64,000 bases of DNA. Origin: Hydractinia symbiolongicarpus. Lineage: Eukaryota > Cnidaria > Hydrozoa > Anthoathecata > Hydractiniidae. Below are positions 25,932-59,064 of the stretch, piece by piece. The stretch's first letter is position 1, and the number at the start of each line of letters is the position of its first letter. The notes beneath the pieces were generated by a model that searched no databases, had not been told where the DNA came from, and saw only the letters and a program-made list of their open reading frames with translations. The position numbers were made by a program, and so were the translations under genes. The stretch is taken from NCBI RefSeq assembly GCF_029227915.1, contig NC_079875.1, positions 29,822,001 through 29,886,000 of the forward strand, given 5' to 3'.

Positions 25932-27329
25932 TTATGAATGAGATAGGCATATTATACATGTGCAATTTACAGATGGTGAAGGACAAACTGCATCTTCAAT
26001 ACCATCATCACAAAACTGGTCAAGTTCTTTCAACAAGTTAATATACTTTTCCATAGTGATATTGTATTTTTTGACGGTTTTATTCGATAATGCCTTCAGG
26101 CGTTTCTCTTCCTCTTGTCTGGCTTTTATACGGGGATGTGTATTAATGTACAAGAGTCGTTCTTGAGTAATTGGTTCGACAAGTGCCCAATTTCTTTCTT
26201 TTTCGCATCTGGAGAATGCAGTGTAAGCTGTACCAAGGTTATTTTTTTCCATCTGAATGGATTGTTGTAACTTGATACGCATGTGTGTGGCAGTTTTACC
26301 ATCTCCAATTGACATACCCTGACTTTTGGCAATAGTTATTGCATATCCTGGCATTAACGGCAGGCCATTTCTGCTGCAACAATCAGACTCACATCGACCT
26401 TTAACAGCAGTAATTGGTATCCATTTCGGATGTTCTTGAATCCATGACGTGCCTTTATAATTTGGGAAATCGACTACAACAGCTATTTGAAATTCAGGTG
26501 GTGACATATTTGGTGAATAAAGGATTGCAATTACTTTTCCCATGGCACCATTGTTTAGGCCAAGGCCTGTAAGACCCTTTTGGTTCTTGGTAAGGATTAC
26601 AGTTGCACCAACTGCCATTAAAGATCTTAGTGGTATTTGACCCAGTTGCTTATCAGTTAAAGAGTGATGTTTACCACGTCCTCTTGATGGAATAACAGCA
26701 ACTGGCACACCAAGGTTAGCTAATTTATTATGGTTTTCTTCATTAACTTCATTCCATGTTTCCATTAATGTAAGGACGCGACCATGCAAAAAGTTACATT
26801 TTTCGCCATGGGGCAAAGCATTTTCATAACGACTATTTATATCTTGCCAGTCTTGTTGAGTAATCGATCTATTGCGTATTCTAAGTAGCCGCTGTAGAAG
26901 GGCCAACTGATCTGGTCCTTGGCGCATTGTTTCTGTAAGAACAATAACATCGTGAAATGAGCGATAGATTGCATAACCAGCAAAGTTGATTGTGGAATCA
27001 TCATGTTTCGGCGGCTTATGTAAATCCAAAGCACGAATTGGTCCAAGTTGACCAAGGTCCCCAAAGAAATTGACAGTTGGTACACCTCCATAATAATTAT
27101 CAAAGTCTCCTGTTGCCTCACATAATCTTTGGCTGCACCAAGCCACTAGAAGCTTCGACTGCATGCTACGTTCATCAATATTAAGTTGAATCAATTTCAG
27201 TTCATTGTTTTCATGCATGCCTGTATATTTTCTTAGCTTTCTTAGAGCTACATCACCCAACGGATAGTCAGAAAGCTGGACAGAATTTAAATTCTTATCT
27301 TTTTTAAGTTTGTGTGGTGGTGGAGTCAT
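25932..27329 (-). pseudogene. Helitron PIF1-type helicase, C-terminal part
   Basis: This 465-codon frame carries the later motifs of the PIF1-like superfamily 1 helicase of Helitrons: a Walker B-type IDERSM at residues 51-56, a GDLGQLGP motif III at 90-97, LTETMRQ at 131-137, the PGYAITIAKSQGMS block at 327-340 and the YTAFSRCEK motif VI-like block at 369-377. The ATG at its head is not the true start: the same protein begins upstream in a different frame (27349 onward). The two frames are related by a single-base shift near 27350, exactly inside the TGAA(S)...TIHS segment. In the intact family this enzyme unwinds the transposon strand during rolling-circle transposition in the nucleus. The last 60 residues (CPSPSVNCTCIICLSHS end) are not a recognised domain. 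Confidence 0.85.
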
Positions 27330-27348
27330 TGAGTGTATAGTGCGACCA

Positions 27349-27990
27349 TTAGGTATGCTGGACTGATGCTGCCCCAGTTGGGGCCAAGTTCATAACAGCA
27401 GAATTTCGCTTAAAAATACGACGAACGATTCTAGTAAGCGCGGTAATGATGAATGTTTTCCCGACACCGGCTGTTCCTTGTATTAATAAACGTATTGGCT
27501 GGGTACCTGTTGGCACAGTTCCTTTTGCGACTTGTAATAAATGCTGAAGATTTATACCAATGACTGTTCTTTGTAATTCATTAGCATTTAAGATGTTTAT
27601 TTGTGGTAAAGTACAATCTTCAGCACGCTGCAATTCATTTTTTTCTGCTTCTTCAGATATAGTTTGTAACCATAAGTCAGCATTAATTGGCCATTGACTA
27701 CCAAAACTTTGAATTGCATAATTATTCCAATTAAATGTAGGCCCACCATCAGGAAGAACCTGTTGTACATTTGGCTCATTGATATCAGCAACATGGTGCC
27801 TAGCAATATCTCTCATTATTGCACTACCTATGTTCATTTGTGCAATGGCAGAATTTTGGGAACATTGGGAACTTGCATCTGTATGTTGTGATGATTGATC
27901 CGAAGACTGAGTATTGGTTTCAATATTGATTGCACGGGTGTGACTTTGTGTTCTCTCGCTTTTTTTATCGAATGATTGTTTATCCTCCTA
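27349..27990 (-). pseudogene. Helitron helicase, N-terminal part with Walker A
   Basis: The frame ending at 27349 contains GTAGVGKTF (Walker A; residues 121-129 counted from the ATG at 27837) and NLAPTGAAS (motif Ia). A one-base shift just after TGAASVQ links it to the downstream helicase frame. Upstream of 27837 the same frame stays open with a polar segment (SSQHTDASSQCSQ) to about 27990, where TAA TAG stops occur. That point lies inside the head of the plus-strand RT ORF and probably marks the edge of the LINE insertion. Upstream Rep sequence resumes only at 32990. Confidence 0.8.
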
Positions 27991-30900
27991 TTACCAAATG
28001 CAAAGTTGTTCTTCAGGATATCTTCCCTAAATGTGGTGCTGAAAAGCTTAAGAAGGTGAATGATTCTCCGGATAAACCCCACACGAGACATTCCCATCAC
28101 ACTGAGGAGAAGTATCTTAATAACTTGCAGATTAAAACACCAATATCTTGGGGGAAAATGATTGACGACCGCTGGTCCAATAATGCTGCTTCAAATATTC
28201 TTTCTAATAAGCTTCATTTGTGTAATTCCTTGTCCGAAAAAGTACAACTGCTTGAAGACACCATTTATAATGAGGCAGCACAAATTTTTGGTCACTCAGT
28301 TCATAAGGGTGGCAGAAAGCTGTCAGGAAAAAGCCGAAGAACTATTCAATCCATCAATCTAATTAAAGAGAAAAATTCCCTAACTAGTCAAATACAGTCA
28401 TCCTGCTACCTAAGTCAAAGGAAGGAATTACACCAACTTCTTACGGATGTAAAAGGTCGAATAACTTTATTGCGCCGAGCTGATAGGTCTAGAAAAAAAC
28501 GCCATCAATTCCAAAAAGCCCAGACCGCCTTTAAGAACAATCCATACAAGGCAGGAAAAGATCTTCTTGACCCAAAGGGCAAATCAGTTTTAAGGGTCGA
28601 ACAAGAAACGCTGGATAACTTTAAACTTGAATCAGTTAAAGACAAATTGTATCATGTACCTTTAGGTAATCTAGATGGGTTATCATCCACTCCACCTCTT
28701 TCGAAATCGTTTCCAGTTTCTCTCTTTAAATATGAAGATTTTATGAAAGTTCTTGTCACTCGGCGAAATGGCTCTTCCCCAGGTATCAATGGGATACCTT
28801 ATAAAGTTTATAAAAAATGTAATAAAGTAAATACTGTTTTGTTTAATGTTTTTAAGTCTTGTTTCAAAAATTGTGTTGTCCCTATTCAATGGCGTTGTGC
28901 TCGTGAAGTTTATATTCCTATGGAGTCTAATATTAAAGACTTTCGACCTATCGCATTATTAAATGTCGAAGGCAAGCTTTTATTTAGCCTTGTATCAAGG
29001 CGATTAGAAGCTCACATTATACATAATAACAAATTCATTAACACGTCGGTGCAAAAGGGTTGTATGGAGAAAGTCCCAGCATGCTGGGAACACATGTCAA
29101 TGGTTTGGTCTGCACTTAAAGAGGCCCGGGCCAAAAAATCACACCTTGCAAATATATGGCTGGATATTGCAAATGCGTATCCTTCAATTCCACACAAGCT
29201 TATATTTTTTGCACTGGAAAGGTATGGAGTCCCTCAGAGTTGGATATCATCCATTAAGTCATACTACGTTGGTTTATATAGCAAATCGTTTTCTTTGTCT
29301 GCACCAAGCAACTGGCACAAGCAGATGCGAGGTATTTTTGCAGGTTGCACTCTTTCCATCATTTTGTTTCTTGCTGGTATAAACATTATTCTTAAATACA
29401 CTATTGCGGCACCGGCCCCAAATTATATTACTTCTAAAAACGTGCCCCTTCCTTTAGTCAGAGCTTTTATGGATGATTTGAACCTAATGTCATCGTCTGT
29501 CTGTGGAGCTCAAAGCCTCCTTTCCAGGTGCGTCACTGCTTTAAAATGGGCTGGCATGAGTTTTTGCCCTCGTAAGTCAAGGAGCATAATCCTTATAAAA
29601 GGTAGATCTGTAAACTCCACACCTTTTTCTGTGTCTCACATCTCGTCACAAACCGACTTCTCTTCATTCATCCCGTCAATCCATTCATCGCCAGTTCGTT
29701 TCCTCGGTCGCATTATTGATAGTACGATTTCAGATACTAAAGCAATCGACGAGCTATATAATAAGCTAATAACCGGTCTTACAATCATAAACGGTTCGTG
29801 TTTCAAAGGGACCCAAAAACTATGGATTTTGCAAAACCTTCTAATTCCTCGAATCCAATGGCCAATTCTTATTTATGAAGTTCCAATATCTCGGGTTACA
29901 AGGCTAAAGCAGAAGATATCAACTTTCATTAGAAAATCTCTGCACAATTCCACGTCAAATATTTGCCTATATAGCTTCTGCTCGCCTTGTCCAATGCCAA
30001 TTAAGAGCTTGACGTCATTGCTTACATGCTCTAAAATAAGTGGTCATTTACTTTTACGCGATTCCAAAGATCCTCTTGTGTCTAATAGTGCACCTACTTT
30101 AAAAGTTGGCATGTGGAAAGTGGGCAACGCAGTAAGAACAGCAGAGGCAGAGGTGAAAATAAAGTCAGTCGTGGGAACTCCCCAGTATGGCAAAGCAGGC
30201 CTAGGGACCAACAAATCTTTCAAAATTCCGATTTCAAAACAGTGCTATTCGTATCGTAAATTAATATCGAACACAGCTAAAGATATCGATGAGGAAGGCA
30301 ACATGGGTAGAGCATTGCAGTTGCAAGTGCAAGGTCAGTGGACGAGATGGGAAAATTACACAAAAAACGATCTATCTTGGAAGTCCATTTTTGCCATGTC
30401 CCCACACTTGCTTTCCTTCTGTCCTGCTTCTACTTACGATGTTCTTCCCTCACCTAGCAATTTAAAACGCTGGAACGTTTGTACTGAATCTGCTTGTGCC
30501 TTATGTTCCAAACAAGTATGTACAACAGCGCATGTTTTAGGCGCTTGCAAGGTTGCTCTATCACAAGGAAGGTTCACTTTCCGACACGATGCTGTGCTTC
30601 GCGGGCTCCTGTTAAGTCTAGAGCGTTTTTCATCTGAAGTTGTCCCGGAAACGAAAAAGCACCTTAAAGTGTCATTTGTAAAAGCAGGTAGCTATTCCTC
30701 CGCTAAAAGATCAAAACCAACTGGTCTATTCCACCATGCTAGTGACTGGGTGATGTTAGCAGATCTGAATGAAGGATTTGTGTTTCCTGGCCATATTGCA
30801 ATCACATCCCTCAGGCCAGACATTGTAATATACTCAAATTTTTCTAAGCGCATCATTATTATTGAACTTACTTGTCCTTGTGAGGAAAACATGGGATCCT

Positions 30901-32198
30901 GGCATTCCACCAAGCTTCCCAAATACTTCCTCTTGGTCGAGGTAATACGTAGCAACGGGTGGTTTCCGCATCTTTTTGCAGTAGAAGTGGGAGCTAGGGG
31001 CTACTCTTCAAGGTCTCTAACTTGCTGTCTAAAAAGCCTCGGTTTCGCTTGCAAATCTGCGTTTTTAACCGCCCGCAAGCTTGGCGATATAAGCATGAAA
31101 GCATCCTTTTGCATTTGGATTGCACGAGACTCAACACATTGGTCACAAGATCTTACGCACTGCAGTCCGCCAACATTGCCACGACCAAAGGATAGTATAC
31201 CTCCTGAAAAATCCTCGTCTGTTACCAAACCCATTAAAAGTCCATCTTCAGCCATCTCTGACATGCCAAAACCCACGGAACACCATAACCTTAGCCAGGA
31301 ACTTAACCAAAAGGTGAGCATCGTTCGCGCTGGTTTGATAAACAAGGGGAACACATGCTACGCAAACTCCATTTTCCAAGCATTAACGGTTCTTCCAAGA
31401 CTTTGGTCTCAATTACCATCAGAGTCCTCTTTGTCATCTCCTCTAGTAAAGTCTATAGTCCTAAATATGTCACTACTGAATCGTTCTCGTTCACCAATTG
31501 ATCCTTCCAATTTCTTACGAGCACTGCAAAACAGAATGCATGCTCTTAACAATAACGCGTTTTATCACAATCACCAACAAGATGTGCCCGAGATCCTTCA
31601 AGTTGTTTTTGACGAAATTATTGGATCTTCCCCTTTGGTTGCCAATCTACTGTCTGTAACTGTGACCACAACAACGTCATGCAACTCCTGTTGTTTCTCC
31701 ACTTCCAGGGAACAAAAGGATTCAATTTTAATTTTACCAACGTGTAAGTCAATAGCAGACTCTTTTAACAAATTTTTACAACCTCAAGAACTTCTAGGTG
31801 ACAACAAGTGGTTCTGCCCCCAGTGTTCATCGCATCAAGAGGCCACAATTGAAACTCAGATTTCTAATTGCGCCGACTTCCTTGTTGTACAATTGTTAAG
31901 ATACACATCAGTAAATGGATCTTCTTTTAAAGACAACAAGTTAGTCAATTGCTTGCCTAAAAAACATCATGTCTTAAAGGTAGCATCTCACCCAACTGAC
32001 GATGTGTCTTTCAACAACAAATATAACTTGGTTGCTACCATTAACCACTCAGGTACATTAAAAGCAGGTCATTACTGGGCCTTCATTAAGGACCAACAAA
32101 ACACCTGGTTCAAATGCAACGATCGCTGTATTTCTCAAGTAGACGCATTCCACTTGAATAATTCTTCGTCATACATAGTTTTCTTTTCCAGAAGTTAA
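27972..32198 (+). CDS. R2/NeSL-like LINE polyprotein: RT, zinc knuckle, restriction-like endonuclease and C-terminal USP protease
   Basis: One uninterrupted ORF of 1408 codons from the first in-frame ATG (27972). Reverse transcriptase: IWLDIANAYPSIPH holds the first catalytic Asp (D398) and FMDDL the Asp pair (D501, D502). A Cys/His knuckle (CALCSKQVCTTAHVLGAC) begins at C842. The restriction-like endonuclease follows as RPD near 948-950 and ELTCPCEEN with E965, then EVGARGY. That order matches R2/NeSL/Hero-clade LINEs. The end, about residues 1120-1408, is a ubiquitin-specific protease domain: Cys box GLINKGNTCYANS with C1129, CxxC pairs at 1237/1240 and 1282/1285, His box AGHYWAF with H1367, and ND with D1384. 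All three catalytic residues are present. The N-terminal region lacks the usual DNA-binding fingers, so the copy is probably 5'-truncated. The element would copy itself by target-primed reverse transcription; the USP could remove ubiquitin from host or element proteins (inference). Confidence 0.9.
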   Translation: MIVYPPITKCKVVLQDIFPKCGAEKLKKVNDSPDKPHTRHSHHTEEKYLNNLQIKTPISWGKMIDDRWSNNAASNILSNKLHLCNSLSEKVQLLEDTIYNEAAQIFGHSVHKGGRKLSGKSRRTIQSINLIKEKNSLTSQIQSSCYLSQRKELHQLLTDVKGRITLLRRADRSRKKRHQFQKAQTAFKNNPYKAGKDLLDPKGKSVLRVEQETLDNFKLESVKDKLYHVPLGNLDGLSSTPPLSKSFPVSLFKYEDFMKVLVTRRNGSSPGINGIPYKVYKKCNKVNTVLFNVFKSCFKNCVVPIQWRCAREVYIPMESNIKDFRPIALLNVEGKLLFSLVSRRLEAHIIHNNKFINTSVQKGCMEKVPACWEHMSMVWSALKEARAKKSHLANIWLDIANAYPSIPHKLIFFALERYGVPQSWISSIKSYYVGLYSKSFSLSAPSNWHKQMRGIFAGCTLSIILFLAGINIILKYTIAAPAPNYITSKNVPLPLVRAFMDDLNLMSSSVCGAQSLLSRCVTALKWAGMSFCPRKSRSIILIKGRSVNSTPFSVSHISSQTDFSSFIPSIHSSPVRFLGRIIDSTISDTKAIDELYNKLITGLTIINGSCFKGTQKLWILQNLLIPRIQWPILIYEVPISRVTRLKQKISTFIRKSLHNSTSNICLYSFCSPCPMPIKSLTSLLTCSKISGHLLLRDSKDPLVSNSAPTLKVGMWKVGNAVRTAEAEVKIKSVVGTPQYGKAGLGTNKSFKIPISKQCYSYRKLISNTAKDIDEEGNMGRALQLQVQGQWTRWENYTKNDLSWKSIFAMSPHLLSFCPASTYDVLPSPSNLKRWNVCTESACALCSKQVCTTAHVLGACKVALSQGRFTFRHDAVLRGLLLSLERFSSEVVPETKKHLKVSFVKAGSYSSAKRSKPTGLFHHASDWVMLADLNEGFVFPGHIAITSLRPDIVIYSNFSKRIIIIELTCPCEENMGSWHSTKLPKYFLLVEVIRSNGWFPHLFAVEVGARGYSSRSLTCCLKSLGFACKSAFLTARKLGDISMKASFCIWIARDSTHWSQDLTHCSPPTLPRPKDSIPPEKSSSVTKPIKSPSSAISDMPKPTEHHNLSQELNQKVSIVRAGLINKGNTCYANSIFQALTVLPRLWSQLPSESSLSSPLVKSIVLNMSLLNRSRSPIDPSNFLRALQNRMHALNNNAFYHNHQQDVPEILQVVFDEIIGSSPLVANLLSVTVTTTTSCNSCCFSTSREQKDSILILPTCKSIADSFNKFLQPQELLGDNKWFCPQCSSHQEATIETQISNCADFLVVQLLRYTSVNGSSFKDNKLVNCLPKKHHVLKVASHPTDDVSFNNKYNLVATINHSGTLKAGHYWAFIKDQQNTWFKCNDRCISQVDAFHLNNSSSYIVFFSRS

Positions 32199-32985
32199 CT
32201 TATTTGTATGTCACACAACAAATGGGGGAGGGAATCCATGACCCTAGCGGTTTTATTGACCCCAGCTGATTTATGTTGGTCAGTGCACCGTGAAACCGGA
32301 GTTTGCTCACTCCTCTCTTTGTATAGAGACACTGTAAGAAGCACAGCAAGGGGGCTTGATATCATATTTTGTCTTTGGGCTTAACGATCCCACTTATTAC
32401 CCCAGTCCAGTAGGGAGGCAGAGTGTGCTCACTTTGCTTTCAGGATTGACAATCCTGCTGCCCTTAGTCATTTTAGAAGAAGCTTTGCAAGGGGGTTAGA
32501 TTTTCTTATCTGGTCTTCGTGGTGTTACGCCCACGCATATTACCCCAGTTATGACAGGCTGGTACTGTCATTAGGCAGGTCCACAGCAACAATTATCTGT
32601 GTAAGGCTGGGTGTTGGAGCTCCATAACACATGTGGAAAGCTACAGCCAGGGTCACAAGTCCTGGCGCGCAGATAGTTGTTTGCTTCTTAAACACATTCT
32701 CTAAAGAATAATTTTAAATTTATCCATTTAAGGATATTCACGTTATGATAAGTTTTATTTATCTCATTTGTACCTATTTAATTCATTTTGAATTGCTTTA
32801 ATATTTATTGTTTAGTGTTGTGTTCTGTCGCTGTTGTATTTTTCTGCTTTTTACGGTCAATGCTTTTGGGAAATCCTTGCAAAAAGGGGGATTTTGCTTT
32901 TTTGAAAAATCTCTAGAGGGTTGCAACCTTTAACTATAGTTGAACCAGCTGTCATTAGACAAGAAATATCATTACAGCTAGCTGT
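32199..32985 (+). other. 3' untranslated region of the R2/NeSL-like LINE
   Basis: About 790 bases without an open frame separate the ORF stop from resumed Helitron coding sequence at 32990. The first 500 bases are less AT-rich than the surroundings and contain repeated words (ATTACCCCAGT at about 32396 and 32539; GCAAGGGGG at about 32347 and 32489), which suggests a structured 3' UTR recognised by the reverse transcriptase. The last 250 bases are AT-rich. No poly(A) tail and no clear target-site duplication were found. Confidence 0.65.
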
Positions 32986-32989
32986 TTTG

Positions 32990-33358
32990 TCACCTCATCA
33001 TCAGTAATATTGATGGGCATTCTTCAGTTTGAACAAGGGAAGCCAAAGCAGCAGCAAATGACTCATGTTGTCCCTTCAAATCTTCAGTATTGTGCCACGT
33101 TTCAACAGAAAATATAATGAGCATAGCTTTTGCATAGTCCTCAGTAACAGGCCAGACAGGTTCTGTAGATATTCCTGTAAAAACTGGGACGTGATCTACT
33201 TTGCAGGTACAATTACACTTTTTGCTCCAGTTCCATAATGATATTTCTGGCTCAGTTTCTCTCCGCTTATCACTTAAGTATTTGTCTACTTGCGCTACTT
33301 TTTGTAACAGTTCCATCTTCACCAGACGTATCCAAGGCTCGGAACCCACTGATACCAA
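32990..33358 (-). pseudogene. Helitron Rep/helicase linker segment
   Basis: Continuation of the Rep protein in another frame. The region KVAQVDKYLSDKRRETEPEISL follows where the larger Rep frame drifts out near GTVTK, so one frameshift lies at about 33300-33310. The downstream part (PVWPVTEDYAKAMLIIFSVETWHNTEDL) resembles the linker between Rep and helicase in Helitrons. The frame ends at 32990, where retrotransposon-derived sequence begins. Confidence 0.7.
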
Positions 33359-34388
33359 TGTATCGAAAATTCCTGGTACATCTAGTCAGACGACCACCAC
33401 TATTAATGAAATCCGCCGCAGCACCTGGAACATCTACTAAACCCGCAATCTTTTGAAGTAGTCGTTGAGCCAAATTTTTAACAGTGCTTCCATCATCAGT
33501 GTTTTCAATGAGATGGCGATGAACATGTACTAAATCTTCCGTTGAAGCAGCACCTTTGCAAGCATAACTAGCAATGTATTTTTGTAGAGCGAGAAGGTTC
33601 TGATCTATAATGTGTTGACTATCACAATTTGCTAGCCAACTAAGTAGGCGTGTTTTTACATGCATCATCAAGCGAGGATGATCCCGTGGTCCCTCATATC
33701 TAGGATGTTCCCCTTCTGTTATCACAGCATTAAAAGGATGAATCTCTTTACCACTTGTATTTTTGGTTTGTGGATCAAGATCGCCAAAATGAAAGCGACA
33801 GTACTTCTGTGAAGCAGTATCTTTTTTATTCTTACGGCGATAACGCAAACAATTGGAATTACAATTATGGAGGCCAATTCTGTTCACAAGATGGGTATGT
33901 TGCTCTTTTATACCACCTTCATGACTAGCAACATACGAAAGTTCTTGTGCCAATGGGTTATGGTCCGGTGGAGCTTGGGTCCCGTCTGGTCTGGCCCATT
34001 GATCTTTGTTTGGAACCCAAGTTCTAATTCCAGAAGTATCCATAATTTCATTTCCACCAGCAGGATGCAGTGAAGTAAACATTGGTGAAAAAATGTCATT
34101 ACTGTCTTCATTTGTTGTTTGTAACCAATTTTGAAGTTCTTGCGCTGCAGGTTTTGGTGCTTGTGAGTCTGCAACATCATCAGACAAGCTATCCATTATA
34201 GTTTTGACTTTCCGGGCATGTTTAGATGACGATATTGCGTGTCCATGTATCTCACCTCGACTTTTAGCAAATTCATATCGCAACCAATAGTCATCATATT
34301 GAAATACTTCCTTACTAACTGTGGCGAAGTAATTTATAGTCCTTGCATCGAAATACTGCGTCACAATATGAAGATTTTGTAAAATCAT
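33270..34388 (-). pseudogene. Helitron Rep (HUH, double-tyrosine rolling-circle endonuclease)
   Basis: A 372-codon frame. YWLRYEFAKSRGEIHGHAI at residues 34-52 contains the HUH metal-binding motif (H48, H50) in the setting typical of Helitron Rep (E-Q/A-x-RG-x-H-x-H). A HNCNSNC...CRFHFG cysteine/histidine block follows at 174-202. LQKYIASYACKG at 269-279 holds the two catalytic tyrosines (Y271, Y275) with the usual three-residue spacing. The enzyme nicks and rejoins DNA during rolling-circle transposition in the nucleus. The frame is open upstream of the ATG to about 34480, where an LLFPGG-bearing frame suggests another frameshift. The 3' end drifts out of frame after GTVTK. Confidence 0.85.
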
Positions 34389-34600
34389 TTCCCGCTTAAA
34401 TTTATTATCACTTTCTATTTGCTGGCGTACAGCATCTTTGTTTACATTGTTTATTAACGCATAATACTTAATAAGTAGTAAGCCATGGCCCCTCCTGGAA
34501 ATAATAGTTGTGAGGCTAGCCTTGTAAAATATGCACAGTCATCTATGTATCTATCTATGGGTAAAATCTTACGAGATGAATGTATTTTTAAACAATAACA

Positions 34601-55944: not shown

Positions 55945-57191
55945 ATGCCTGGTGAAAATTGTGCTATATATGGATGCTCTGTATCGAGGAGAAATAAAGA
56001 CATCAGTATTTTCAAACTTCCGTTGCCAAATAATGAAGTAAACAAAAAATGGGGAAAGAAATTGCTACTCATGTTCTCGTGTTTCTTGCCAAAGGTGTTG
56101 TTAATCCTCTTTCATATAGTATTGCAACATTTGCTACAACTGGAATAACTTCCTATCAAATCATGCCTATATTTTGGAAAGATGTTTTTTACCTTGAAAA
56201 AATAAATTTGAAAGTTATCGCTGCAACAGCTGATGGTGCTTCTCCAAATAGACGCTTTTTCAGAATGCATAGGCATTTAGATGGTGTCCATGACAGTGAT
56301 GTAGTTTATCGTACTAAGAATATTCATGCTAATGATGGTCGATTTATCTATTTTTTAGCTGATGCTCCACATCTCATCAAAACATCACGCAATTGTCTGT
56401 TTAATTCTGGTTCTGGTCGAGCTACCCGTTATATGTGGAATAGTGGATTTTATGTTCTTTGGAGTCATATCACACAACTCTATCACAATGATCTCGAGAG
56501 TGGTTTGAAGTTGGTCAATAAATTAACAAATGATCATATACAGCTAACACCATTTTCAGTAATGAAAGTTCGTCTTGCAGCTCAAGTTCTCAGTGAAACT
56601 GTTGGCAAAGTTCTCAATCAGTTTGGTCCACCTGAAGCAGCTGGTACTGCACAATTTTGTCTAATGATGGATAGTTTTTTTGACTGCTTGAATGTGAAAA
56701 ACACTGTCGAACATGTGTTGAAGAGAAAGCCATTTCTAAAACCTTATCAGTCAGTTGATGATGAACGCTTTGCATGGTTGGACGGTTTTCTCTCCTATTT
56801 CACCTTATGGAAAGAGTCAATTGAAGAGCGTGGTGATAATTTTACAAAAAATGCCAAATCAAATATGTTTATTTCCTGGCAAACACATGAAGGGCTTAAG
56901 ATTACAGTTAACTCTCTCAAAAAAGTAATGAAATTCCTTTTACAACATGGTGTACCGTACATTCTTTCTGAACGGTTTTGTCAAGACGATCTGGAAAATT
57001 ATTTTGGTAGGCAGCGTGCCATTGGATCGCGACGTGACAACCCATCGGTGAGAGACGTTGGATATAATGATAATACCATAAAAGCACAATTTTCTGTAAG
57101 ACCAATTGCTGGGAATGTACAAGGATGTGGTAGCAAATTCAACATGATAGATGACACCCCATTACCAAAAAGAAAAAAGTCTACACTTTGA
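55945..57191 (+). pseudogene. THAP/P-element-type transposase, internally deleted
   Basis: The first ATG (55945) opens MPGENCAIYGCSVSRRNK then FKLPLP and W, the N-terminal half of a THAP DNA-binding zinc finger. The Cys-His half of the finger, the coiled coil and the first catalytic Asp region are missing. Near 56050 the sequence jumps into another frame with IATHVLVFLAKG, ATADGASPNRRFF (second catalytic Asp), ADAPHLIKTSRN and the C-terminal SERFCQDDLENYFGRQRAIG block, all typical of P-element/THAP9 transposases. The second frame stays open from 56049 to 57191 (380 codons). In intact relatives this enzyme cuts and pastes the element in the nucleus. The deletion plus frame change makes this copy inactive unless splicing rescues it. 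Confidence 0.85.
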
Positions 57192-57709: not shown

Positions 57710-58918
57710 TCAGTGACCCATGTCTTTGCTGCTAGTGGCTTTTTTAATTTCAGTTCTCAATGATCTTTTCTTTGCAAGTTTTTTAGCAGCCTTATGTTTT
57801 TCACGTATGTCTCTAGCATAGGAAAAGCTGCGAACTCTTGTAAACATAGTAAGCATGTGTTCCAGAAGATTCATACTGACTTCTTTACTGACTTGTGGAT
57901 CAATGGTATAACAGACACTTTTGAAATTGGAAAGTACAGAACAGTTTTTGAGCATATTTTTAACAAGGTCTTGACAATTTAGTGTTGTGCTGAAATTTGA
58001 AGTTTTCAACCGAAACATTTGTTCACATTCTCGAAAAAGTTCTTGTATTTGTTTGTTCACTCTCCACAAGCCACCACGGTCGCGTATATTGATCAATGTC
58101 TGTGAATCATCACAGTCAACTTTGCATGCTTGTAGGATTGATACAGCCTGTTTGTTGAATTCACTTTGTTGAGACTTTTTCGAAAAACGGAATTTTGTAT
58201 AAAGCTTGTGAACGATAAATCCAGCCACATATTGCAGGCTTTTTTGTTCATTCTCCGAGATAGGTGTTACAGCTTCAGTTACAGAATCGACAACTTTATC
58301 ATTACCCGAAAGATGAATTAAAACATGATTTGCAAGTTCTGTTAGAATAATATTGCTCAAAGTAGTGTCCTCAAATTTTGATGGAAGCAAGTTATCTTTC
58401 AATAGACCATAAAAGTTTGCATAAAAATCTTCTGCATCACCGTTATACTTTCCAATGATTGGCTTCAGTTTTTCCCAAAGTTTGACCGCATCATCATTAG
58501 AAACTTTAAAATCACGAAACACTTCCCTGGTTGATTTGGGTAAACATTGATCACCAAGGCATATCTCAGCACTCTTCGTGATAAGTACTTTCAACTTCAA
58601 AGGGTGTAGCTTTTTCAAAATTTGTTCTTCTTTAGTAAGTTTTGGTAATGAAGGACCAGCATTCGTCGATATTTCAGGAGTAACTTCAGTAGTGTGTTTG
58701 ACATTGCGATGTCTAGTCAGGCCACGTTGTGATTTACAAATTTTATCACAATCCTGACAAGGATACCCAACTTCTTCGTAAGCTTTCACTTCCGTTATCA
58801 CAGCATCTAATTCCACATTAAAATCCACATCTTCATCAAGAAAACCGCCTTCAAGTAACTCAAATAAATCATCAAGATCTTCGCCTGCAAGGTAGTCTCC
58901 TCCTGCATGCGCCGCCAT
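57710..58918 (-). CDS. C2H2 zinc-finger protein inside the P-type element
   Basis: Likely start at 58918, an ATGGCGGCGC in a good AAA context, giving 402 residues; the frame is open further upstream to 59035. The N-terminus is acidic (GEDLDDLFELLEGGF). A single C2H2 finger follows at about residues 54-75 (C-x2-C-x12-H-x4-H, with SQRGLTRHRNVKH). The remaining 325 residues form a helical-looking region with SLQYVAGFIVHKLYTKF and a RGGLWRVNKQIQELF block, and a lysine-rich end. I have the impression that similar proteins occur as uncharacterised animal sequences, but no function is known to me. It is convergent with the transposase and enclosed by the same terminal repeats, so it is probably element-encoded, perhaps as a DNA-binding partner or regulator (inference). 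No frameshift or stop is seen. Confidence 0.7.
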   Translation of the reverse strand: MAAHAGGDYLAGEDLDDLFELLEGGFLDEDVDFNVELDAVITEVKAYEEVGYPCQDCDKICKSQRGLTRHRNVKHTTEVTPEISTNAGPSLPKLTKEEQILKKLHPLKLKVLITKSAEICLGDQCLPKSTREVFRDFKVSNDDAVKLWEKLKPIIGKYNGDAEDFYANFYGLLKDNLLPSKFEDTTLSNIILTELANHVLIHLSGNDKVVDSVTEAVTPISENEQKSLQYVAGFIVHKLYTKFRFSKKSQQSEFNKQAVSILQACKVDCDDSQTLINIRDRGGLWRVNKQIQELFRECEQMFRLKTSNFSTTLNCQDLVKNMLKNCSVLSNFKSVCYTIDPQVSKEVSMNLLEHMLTMFTRVRSFSYARDIREKHKAAKKLAKKRSLRTEIKKATSSKDMGH

Positions 58919-58970
58919 TTTGAACTTCTGTGCCCTCCTGCATGCGCCGCCATTTTGAACTTCTGTGCAG
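58899..58970. repeat. ~36-bp direct duplication at the right end of the P-type element
   Basis: CTCCTGCATGCGCCGCCATT followed by TTGAACTTCTGTGC occurs twice in direct succession (about 58899-58934 and 58935-58968). It duplicates the subterminal repeat and the ATGGCGGCGC start context of the zinc-finger gene; only the left copy is in frame as a start. Confidence 0.75.
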
Positions 58971-59064
58971 GATGAGCGGGCCGTCCCAGGCTGATTGAGG
59001 ATAGTTCGCGTAAACAATGCCGACGGTCCACGCAACTAGACTATCTTTTTTTCTTGTGACTATG

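Follow-up and report, generated by a model that had tools for sequence, protein, structure and literature searches.

Within a 64,000-nucleotide stretch of the genome of the marine hydroid Hydractinia symbiolongicarpus (NC_079875.1, positions 29,822,001 to 29,886,000; hereafter the window, on contig C1) lies a long interspersed nuclear element (LINE) whose single, uninterrupted open reading frame (ORF) encodes a reverse transcriptase (RT) with an FMDD motif, a Cys/His knuckle, a restriction-like endonuclease (RLE) and, at the C-terminus, a ubiquitin-specific protease (USP) domain (Table 1). This composition had been proposed in a first-pass annotation made from the sequence alone, and all four parts were located at the motifs it named. 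The element it drew, 27972..32198, was borne out as an uninterrupted plus-strand frame, but the ATG at 27972 is flanking DNA, as the LINE starts only at 27982, leaving the window copy without its own 5' untranslated region (UTR) and first codons; moreover, the element continues past its stop codon through a 3' UTR of 0.8 kb, to ~33003.

The protease domain and its polyprotein

The C-terminal domain was assigned by Pfam to UCH (residues 1134-1419, E 3.8e-31, 109.1 bits, cut-off 23.9), with UCH_1 matching as well (1.1e-8), whilst neither Ulp1 nor OTU was found on the window ORF up to E=1; a protease of Ulp1 or OTU type was rejected on these scores. The predicted triad (Cys1143, His1381 and Asp1398) and two CxxC pairs (1251/1254 and 1296/1299) are all present, as first annotated, and the domain is predicted to adopt a USP fold. 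The host proteases USP2, USP8, USP15 and USP36 share the triad, the zinc-finger cysteines and the fold, but are only 17-28 % identical to it in the structural alignments listed, and in a search for a host donor their profile scores (121.5-126.4 bits) left none standing out.

Upstream of the protease, the solved structures most like the RT are those of R2 retrotransposon proteins, and the RLE residues R, P, D, E and K do not vary across alignment A1 (n=55 sequences). The linker joining endonuclease and USP, of ~50 residues, is flexible in the predicted structure. Proteases process polyproteins in other retroelements and viruses, and the USP might likewise separate itself from the RT-RLE part; USPs, however, cleave after the tail of ubiquitin, and no Pfam ubiquitin-like domain was found on the window ORF, making self-processing highly improbable.

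Table 1. Coordinates of the LINE, its coding parts and the surrounding element in the window
Feature	Position	Strand	Basis or detail
LINE insertion, family A, 5'-truncated	27982..33003	+	Homologous DNA in 7 other genomic copies, 3' ends agreeing to within 4 bases
ORF, RT-RLE-USP polyprotein, 1422 codons before stop	27930..32198	+	Codons 1-17 flank, codon 18 across junction
Reverse transcriptase domain RVT_1	28932..29711	+	Pfam 4.7e-17, residues 335-594
FMDD of RT, residue 513	29466-29477	+	Sequence
CCHC knuckle, C-x2-C-x8-H-x4-C, from residue 856	30495..30548	+	Sequence; C, H, C columns nearly invariant (alignment A1)
RLE, RPD 962-964, E979, K995	30792..31148	+	Domain limits approximate
Disordered linker RLE-USP	31161..31307	+	pLDDT mostly <50
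USP (C19) domain	31329..32186	+	Cys 31356-31358, His 32070-32072, Asp 32121-32123; zinc-type Cys codons 31680, 31689, 31815, 31824
LINE 3' UTR	32199..33003	+	Common to other copies until ~33003, unrelated flanks beyond
Helitron-like element, left part, PIF1-type helicase ORFs	25932..27981	-	ORFs; weak PIF1/AAA matches below Pfam cut-offs; ~80 % DNA identity to L013/L014
Same Helitron-like element, right part	33005..34479	-	77.6 % identity to L029

Genomic copies and the insertion site

The RLE and USP were used as a query against the 480.9-Mb assembly, returning at least 94 matches. Seven other loci of the window's own family (family A) were examined, whose 3' ends all coincide with window 33003 to within 4 bases before passing into unrelated DNA. 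A second family (family B) is 47-48 % identical to the window over RLE and USP, and ~55 % over the whole ORF. Sixteen regions of family B were taken, and the other 15 are 98.0-99.8 % identical to the representative L009 over the main aligned pieces; six loci hold a stop-free open frame of 1426 aa, and of the nine copies covering at least 1421 codons seven are free of stops (insertions were not scored). Given these near-identical copies and intact frames, family B has probably been active recently.

At seven other loci of family A and 13 of family B, each with distinct 3' flanks, the USP precedes the 3' UTR of the element itself. Since in both families this UTR comes after the stop codon of the USP, the domain belongs to the element. 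A chance fusion, in which one LINE copy came to lie beside, or captured, a host USP exon, has only the single window copy in its favour; the first-pass annotation had reasoned that copies ending before the USP would reveal such an event, and the other copies examined instead run through the USP and 0.8 kb beyond. Local fusion with a host exon was rejected on this ground, and we regard it as next to impossible.

The 3' flanks differ among eight loci of family A, the window included, and 13 of family B, further indicating that there is no fixed target site. Insertion into 28S rRNA genes, as in R2, was not found: the window copy sits in a Helitron-like element and the flanks of other copies vary. 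No target-site duplication was seen in the 11 copies checked (longest shared word 3-6 bases), nor did a search of L009 and the family A copy L027 find a ribozyme of R2 type or any other Rfam family, aside from one sub-threshold match.

The 5' limit of the window LINE was set at 27982, where homology to L027 starts and that to a related Helitron-like element ends (27981). This relative, on contig C11 (L013/L014 and the stretch neighbouring L014 at the same locus, L029), matches the window up to 27981 and resumes from 33005; as its homology brackets the LINE, the latter is a 5'-truncated insertion into a Helitron-like element. L027 extends ~417 bp further 5' than the window copy, with the frame there open for ~54 codons upstream. 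The name Helitron is suggested by weak PIF1-type helicase matches and general likeness; the element so named, noted at 25932-27837 and 33270-34388 on the minus strand, is split by the LINE. The C11 relative has likewise been entered, there by an array of family B LINEs.

Copies that reach the 5' end (L009-L018 and L024 in family B, L027 in family A) follow, in head-to-tail order, ~200 bp or more from the 3' end of another unit, forming tandem units of ~5.37 kb. The 10 distinct junctions found in family B are identical, and the same arrangement occurs in one family A copy. This suggests either a promoter in the 3' region of the upstream copy or concatemeric insertion; as the 10 family B junctions are identical, transcription through the neighbouring copy fits better than template jumping. 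Near the start of the unit, in the 5' UTR of both families, repeats of ~17-18 bases resembling GACACTGGGAAAGACTAG were noted by eye (L027 from 1839, L009 from 1845). The pufferfish (Tetraodon) LINE of Bouneau 2003 is said, going by the title of that paper, to have a tandem structure too.

Relatives, phylogeny and constraint

To look for the same domain order elsewhere, as the first-pass annotation had advised, residues 240-1110 (RT and RLE, with the USP excluded) served as query. Among the best 120 of 200 matches, 77 carry a USP as judged by a profile seeded with the window domain, some with a short first part only, and 73 of the 120 bear the Pfam UCH label; this breadth likewise contradicts a chance fusion. 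Most of these relatives come from public assemblies, usually as contigs of a few kb, and two are filed under a bacterial metagenome-assembled genome, probably through eukaryotic contamination. Searching again from a distant member (best 120 of 178 matches) added 12 USP-bearers among 51 new proteins, and no USP was found in the many fish, lancelet and mollusc elements among the matches listed.

A tree of the RT and RLE was built from 167 rows (87 with USP, 71 without, nine left unassigned) and rooted on P0268; P0030, scored USP-less, is possibly a cut contig. A first RT tree had omitted six of 122 rows for short coverage, and 12 rows finishing 81-101 residues beyond the RLE motif were assigned 'no USP' by hand. 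All 87 USP rows fall in a single clade (116 rows, support 100). The 25 named animal elements (Hydractinia models excluded) all lie outside that clade, and a USP was found in none of them. The clade divides into the window's subclade of 67 rows (63 USP, one without, three unassigned) and a mixed sister of 49 (24 USP, 21 without, four unassigned; support 88). Relatives lacking the USP mostly finish ~80-140 residues beyond the RLE motif. One of them, P0089, has a 495-residue C-terminal tail past the last aligned part, with no Pfam match there at E 0.01.

USP and RT have been inherited together. When the 68 complete USPs were placed in a tree against an outgroup of human USP36 and USP15, 54 of the 55 clade-1 domains grouped together (100/99). 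Pairwise RT and USP distances correlate at r 0.86 overall, and at 0.85 and 0.86 when each clade is taken alone, values matched by none of 2000 permutations; the two results together argue for a long shared journey. Cys, His and Asp of the triad are kept in all 68 complete domains, the window's among them, as are three of the four zinc-type cysteines (the fourth in 66), at a median pairwise difference of 0.71; the count takes domains that reach both ends. Some host USPs are pseudoenzymes, and the domain could by analogy be a dead ubiquitin-binding or structural module, but such uniform retention of the triad despite this divergence renders that highly improbable.

Selection for protease activity, which the first-pass annotation had read from one intact triad, is further indicated by the ratio of non-synonymous to synonymous substitution (dN/dS) across copies: 0.13-0.21 for the USP between genomic subfamilies not saturated at silent sites (dS 1.26-1.53), and hence purifying. 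For the RLE, the ratio was 0.11 in the fullest usable pair and 0.23 in a partial one. The USP ratios of L037 are invalid, two frames having been read together (10 stops), and L038 and L039 are dead fragments whose ratio of 0.11 to family A was left unused.

Several observations weigh against the interpretation proposed below. The low-ratio pairs all include L034 (one stop) or L035 (five stops), silent sites are saturated in most other family pairs, and near-identical pairs give ratios from 0 to 1.06 on few changes. Within family A, pN/pS is 0.49 for the RT, 0.49 for the RLE and 0.79 for the USP, a weaker constraint on the last; within family B the values are 0.28, 0.48 and, for the USP, 0.58 on 22 substitutions, again few changes. 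Seven of 75 USP rows, omitted from the triad count, contain just the first part of the domain. In addition, the RT clade includes 22 USP-less rows, meaning that some lineages can do without the domain or that it was acquired repeatedly, and parsimony places seven changes of USP state on the RT tree. As for the family A value of 0.79, it is what mostly post-insertion change would give and by itself provides no evidence; the linker there reaches 2.97 (two synonymous and 20 non-synonymous changes, at few sites). Overall, constraint on the USP is real, yet looks looser than that on the RT.

Both one early gain followed by losses and several gains may underlie the history of the domain, either being compatible with seven changes. 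Repeated capture by related LINEs is favoured by the mixed sister group and by its USPs forming two groups whose joining is unsupported. Conversely, both host USPs used as outgroup (two only) fall outside all LINE USPs (88/92), and the USP and RT distances correlate within the mixed group too (r 0.86, 13 rows). Recurrent gain is the less likely course, though far from negligible.

Known systems and proposed function

LINEs with an RLE are grouped as CRE, R2, R4, NeSL and HERO; an N-terminal Ulp1-like protease is described in nematode NeSL and one Utopia, and many non-specific elements in HERO (PMC4640811). The first-pass comparison with NeSL thus holds in that RLE LINEs with an added cysteine protease of ubiquitin/SUMO type exist, but theirs is a different protease, at the opposite end of the protein. 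Ginger transposons are described as carrying OTU and Ulp1, C-terminally in Ginger1, some Helitrons as carrying OTU, and a Trichomonas transposase_11 protein as having a C19 peptidase (PMC2836005); these, too, are mobile-element proteins with a deubiquitinase-type domain, but belong to DNA transposons with unrelated transposition enzymes. No report of a USP, C19 peptidase or deubiquitinase in a LINE was found among the literature matches listed (Repbase, bioRxiv and most subscription journals lay outside the search).

On its sequence, the window element looks HERO/Zebulon-like. It adjoins RLE LINEs of fish, lancelet and mollusc in the RT tree, shares with HERO-type proteins the order RT-knuckle-RLE in one protein, with a CCHC knuckle and C-terminal RLE that is here followed by the USP, and resembles HERO in having no fixed target site. 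The neighbouring sequences carry no HERO label, and we take the fish and lancelet proteins to be HERO. The Tetraodon nigroviridis polyprotein Q7T1J8 (P0268), presumably the LINE of Bouneau 2003 named Zebulon, is 33 % identical over window ORF residues 42-1073, but ends as other USP-less relatives do.

We propose, at a probability of roughly 0.6, that a HERO/Zebulon-like ancestor with an R2-type endonuclease long ago picked up a host-type USP behind that endonuclease, and that the domain deubiquitinates in cis. RT and RLE would carry out target-primed reverse transcription from one polyprotein, whilst the USP, on its flexible linker, would strip ubiquitin. Its foremost candidate target, though somewhat short of an even chance, is the element's own protein or ribonucleoprotein, which would be spared the proteasome during a short nuclear life. 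Somewhat less probable is action mainly on ubiquitinated chromatin or repair factors (e.g. histones, PCNA or FANCD2-type proteins) at the nicked target, where it would facilitate second-strand steps. The position of the USP directly behind the endonuclease, hence at the target, is consistent with such a role; the authors of the Ginger study proposed repair signalling for transposon-borne ubiquitin/SUMO proteases (PMC2836005), and USP1-FANCD2 appears among the fold matches, but alongside many other USPs, in a ranking that does not separate USP subfamilies. A further reading, at about an even chance, is that these elements form an ancient, widespread lineage in which deubiquitination in cis by their own enzyme is obligatory for retrotransposition.

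For annotation, Hydractinia gene models P0124, P0152, P0202, P0229 and P0135, named USP50, USP51-like, USP27-like or uncharacterized, closely match the LINE USP and, judged by that likeness, may be pieces of USP LINEs; L040, the sole fragment locus examined, is a dead LINE piece, and annotators should be warned that such names may mark LINE fragments. An exapted free-standing USP was considered at C1:8802384 and rejected, as the match starts past the catalytic Cys, the frame is broken at the His motif and a LINE 3' UTR adjoins. This is one of three near-identical places on C1 and perhaps LOC130649342 (P0135), going by contig and identity only. Elsewhere in the window, 56049-57191 (+) and 57710-59035 (-) hold pieces of P-element/THAP9-like transposase (PF21788, 2.2e-18; PF21787, 1e-8), beside another ORF that has a C2H2 finger and, weakly, a P-element C-terminal match.

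To the question why mobile elements repeatedly acquire SUMO and ubiquitin proteases, these LINEs bring a lineage of retrotransposons in which a bona fide USP domain, fused to the integration enzyme, has been under long-term selection. As near-identical intact copies reside in the chromosome-level genome of a laboratory animal, a point mutation of the catalytic Cys would make the question testable. If deubiquitination is indeed obligatory for their retrotransposition, they would be the first LINEs for which editing of the ubiquitin signal, on the element's integration complex or on target chromatin, is demonstrated. The preservation of an intact USP over long evolution suggests that such elements need to counter or use the host ubiquitin system in order to jump.
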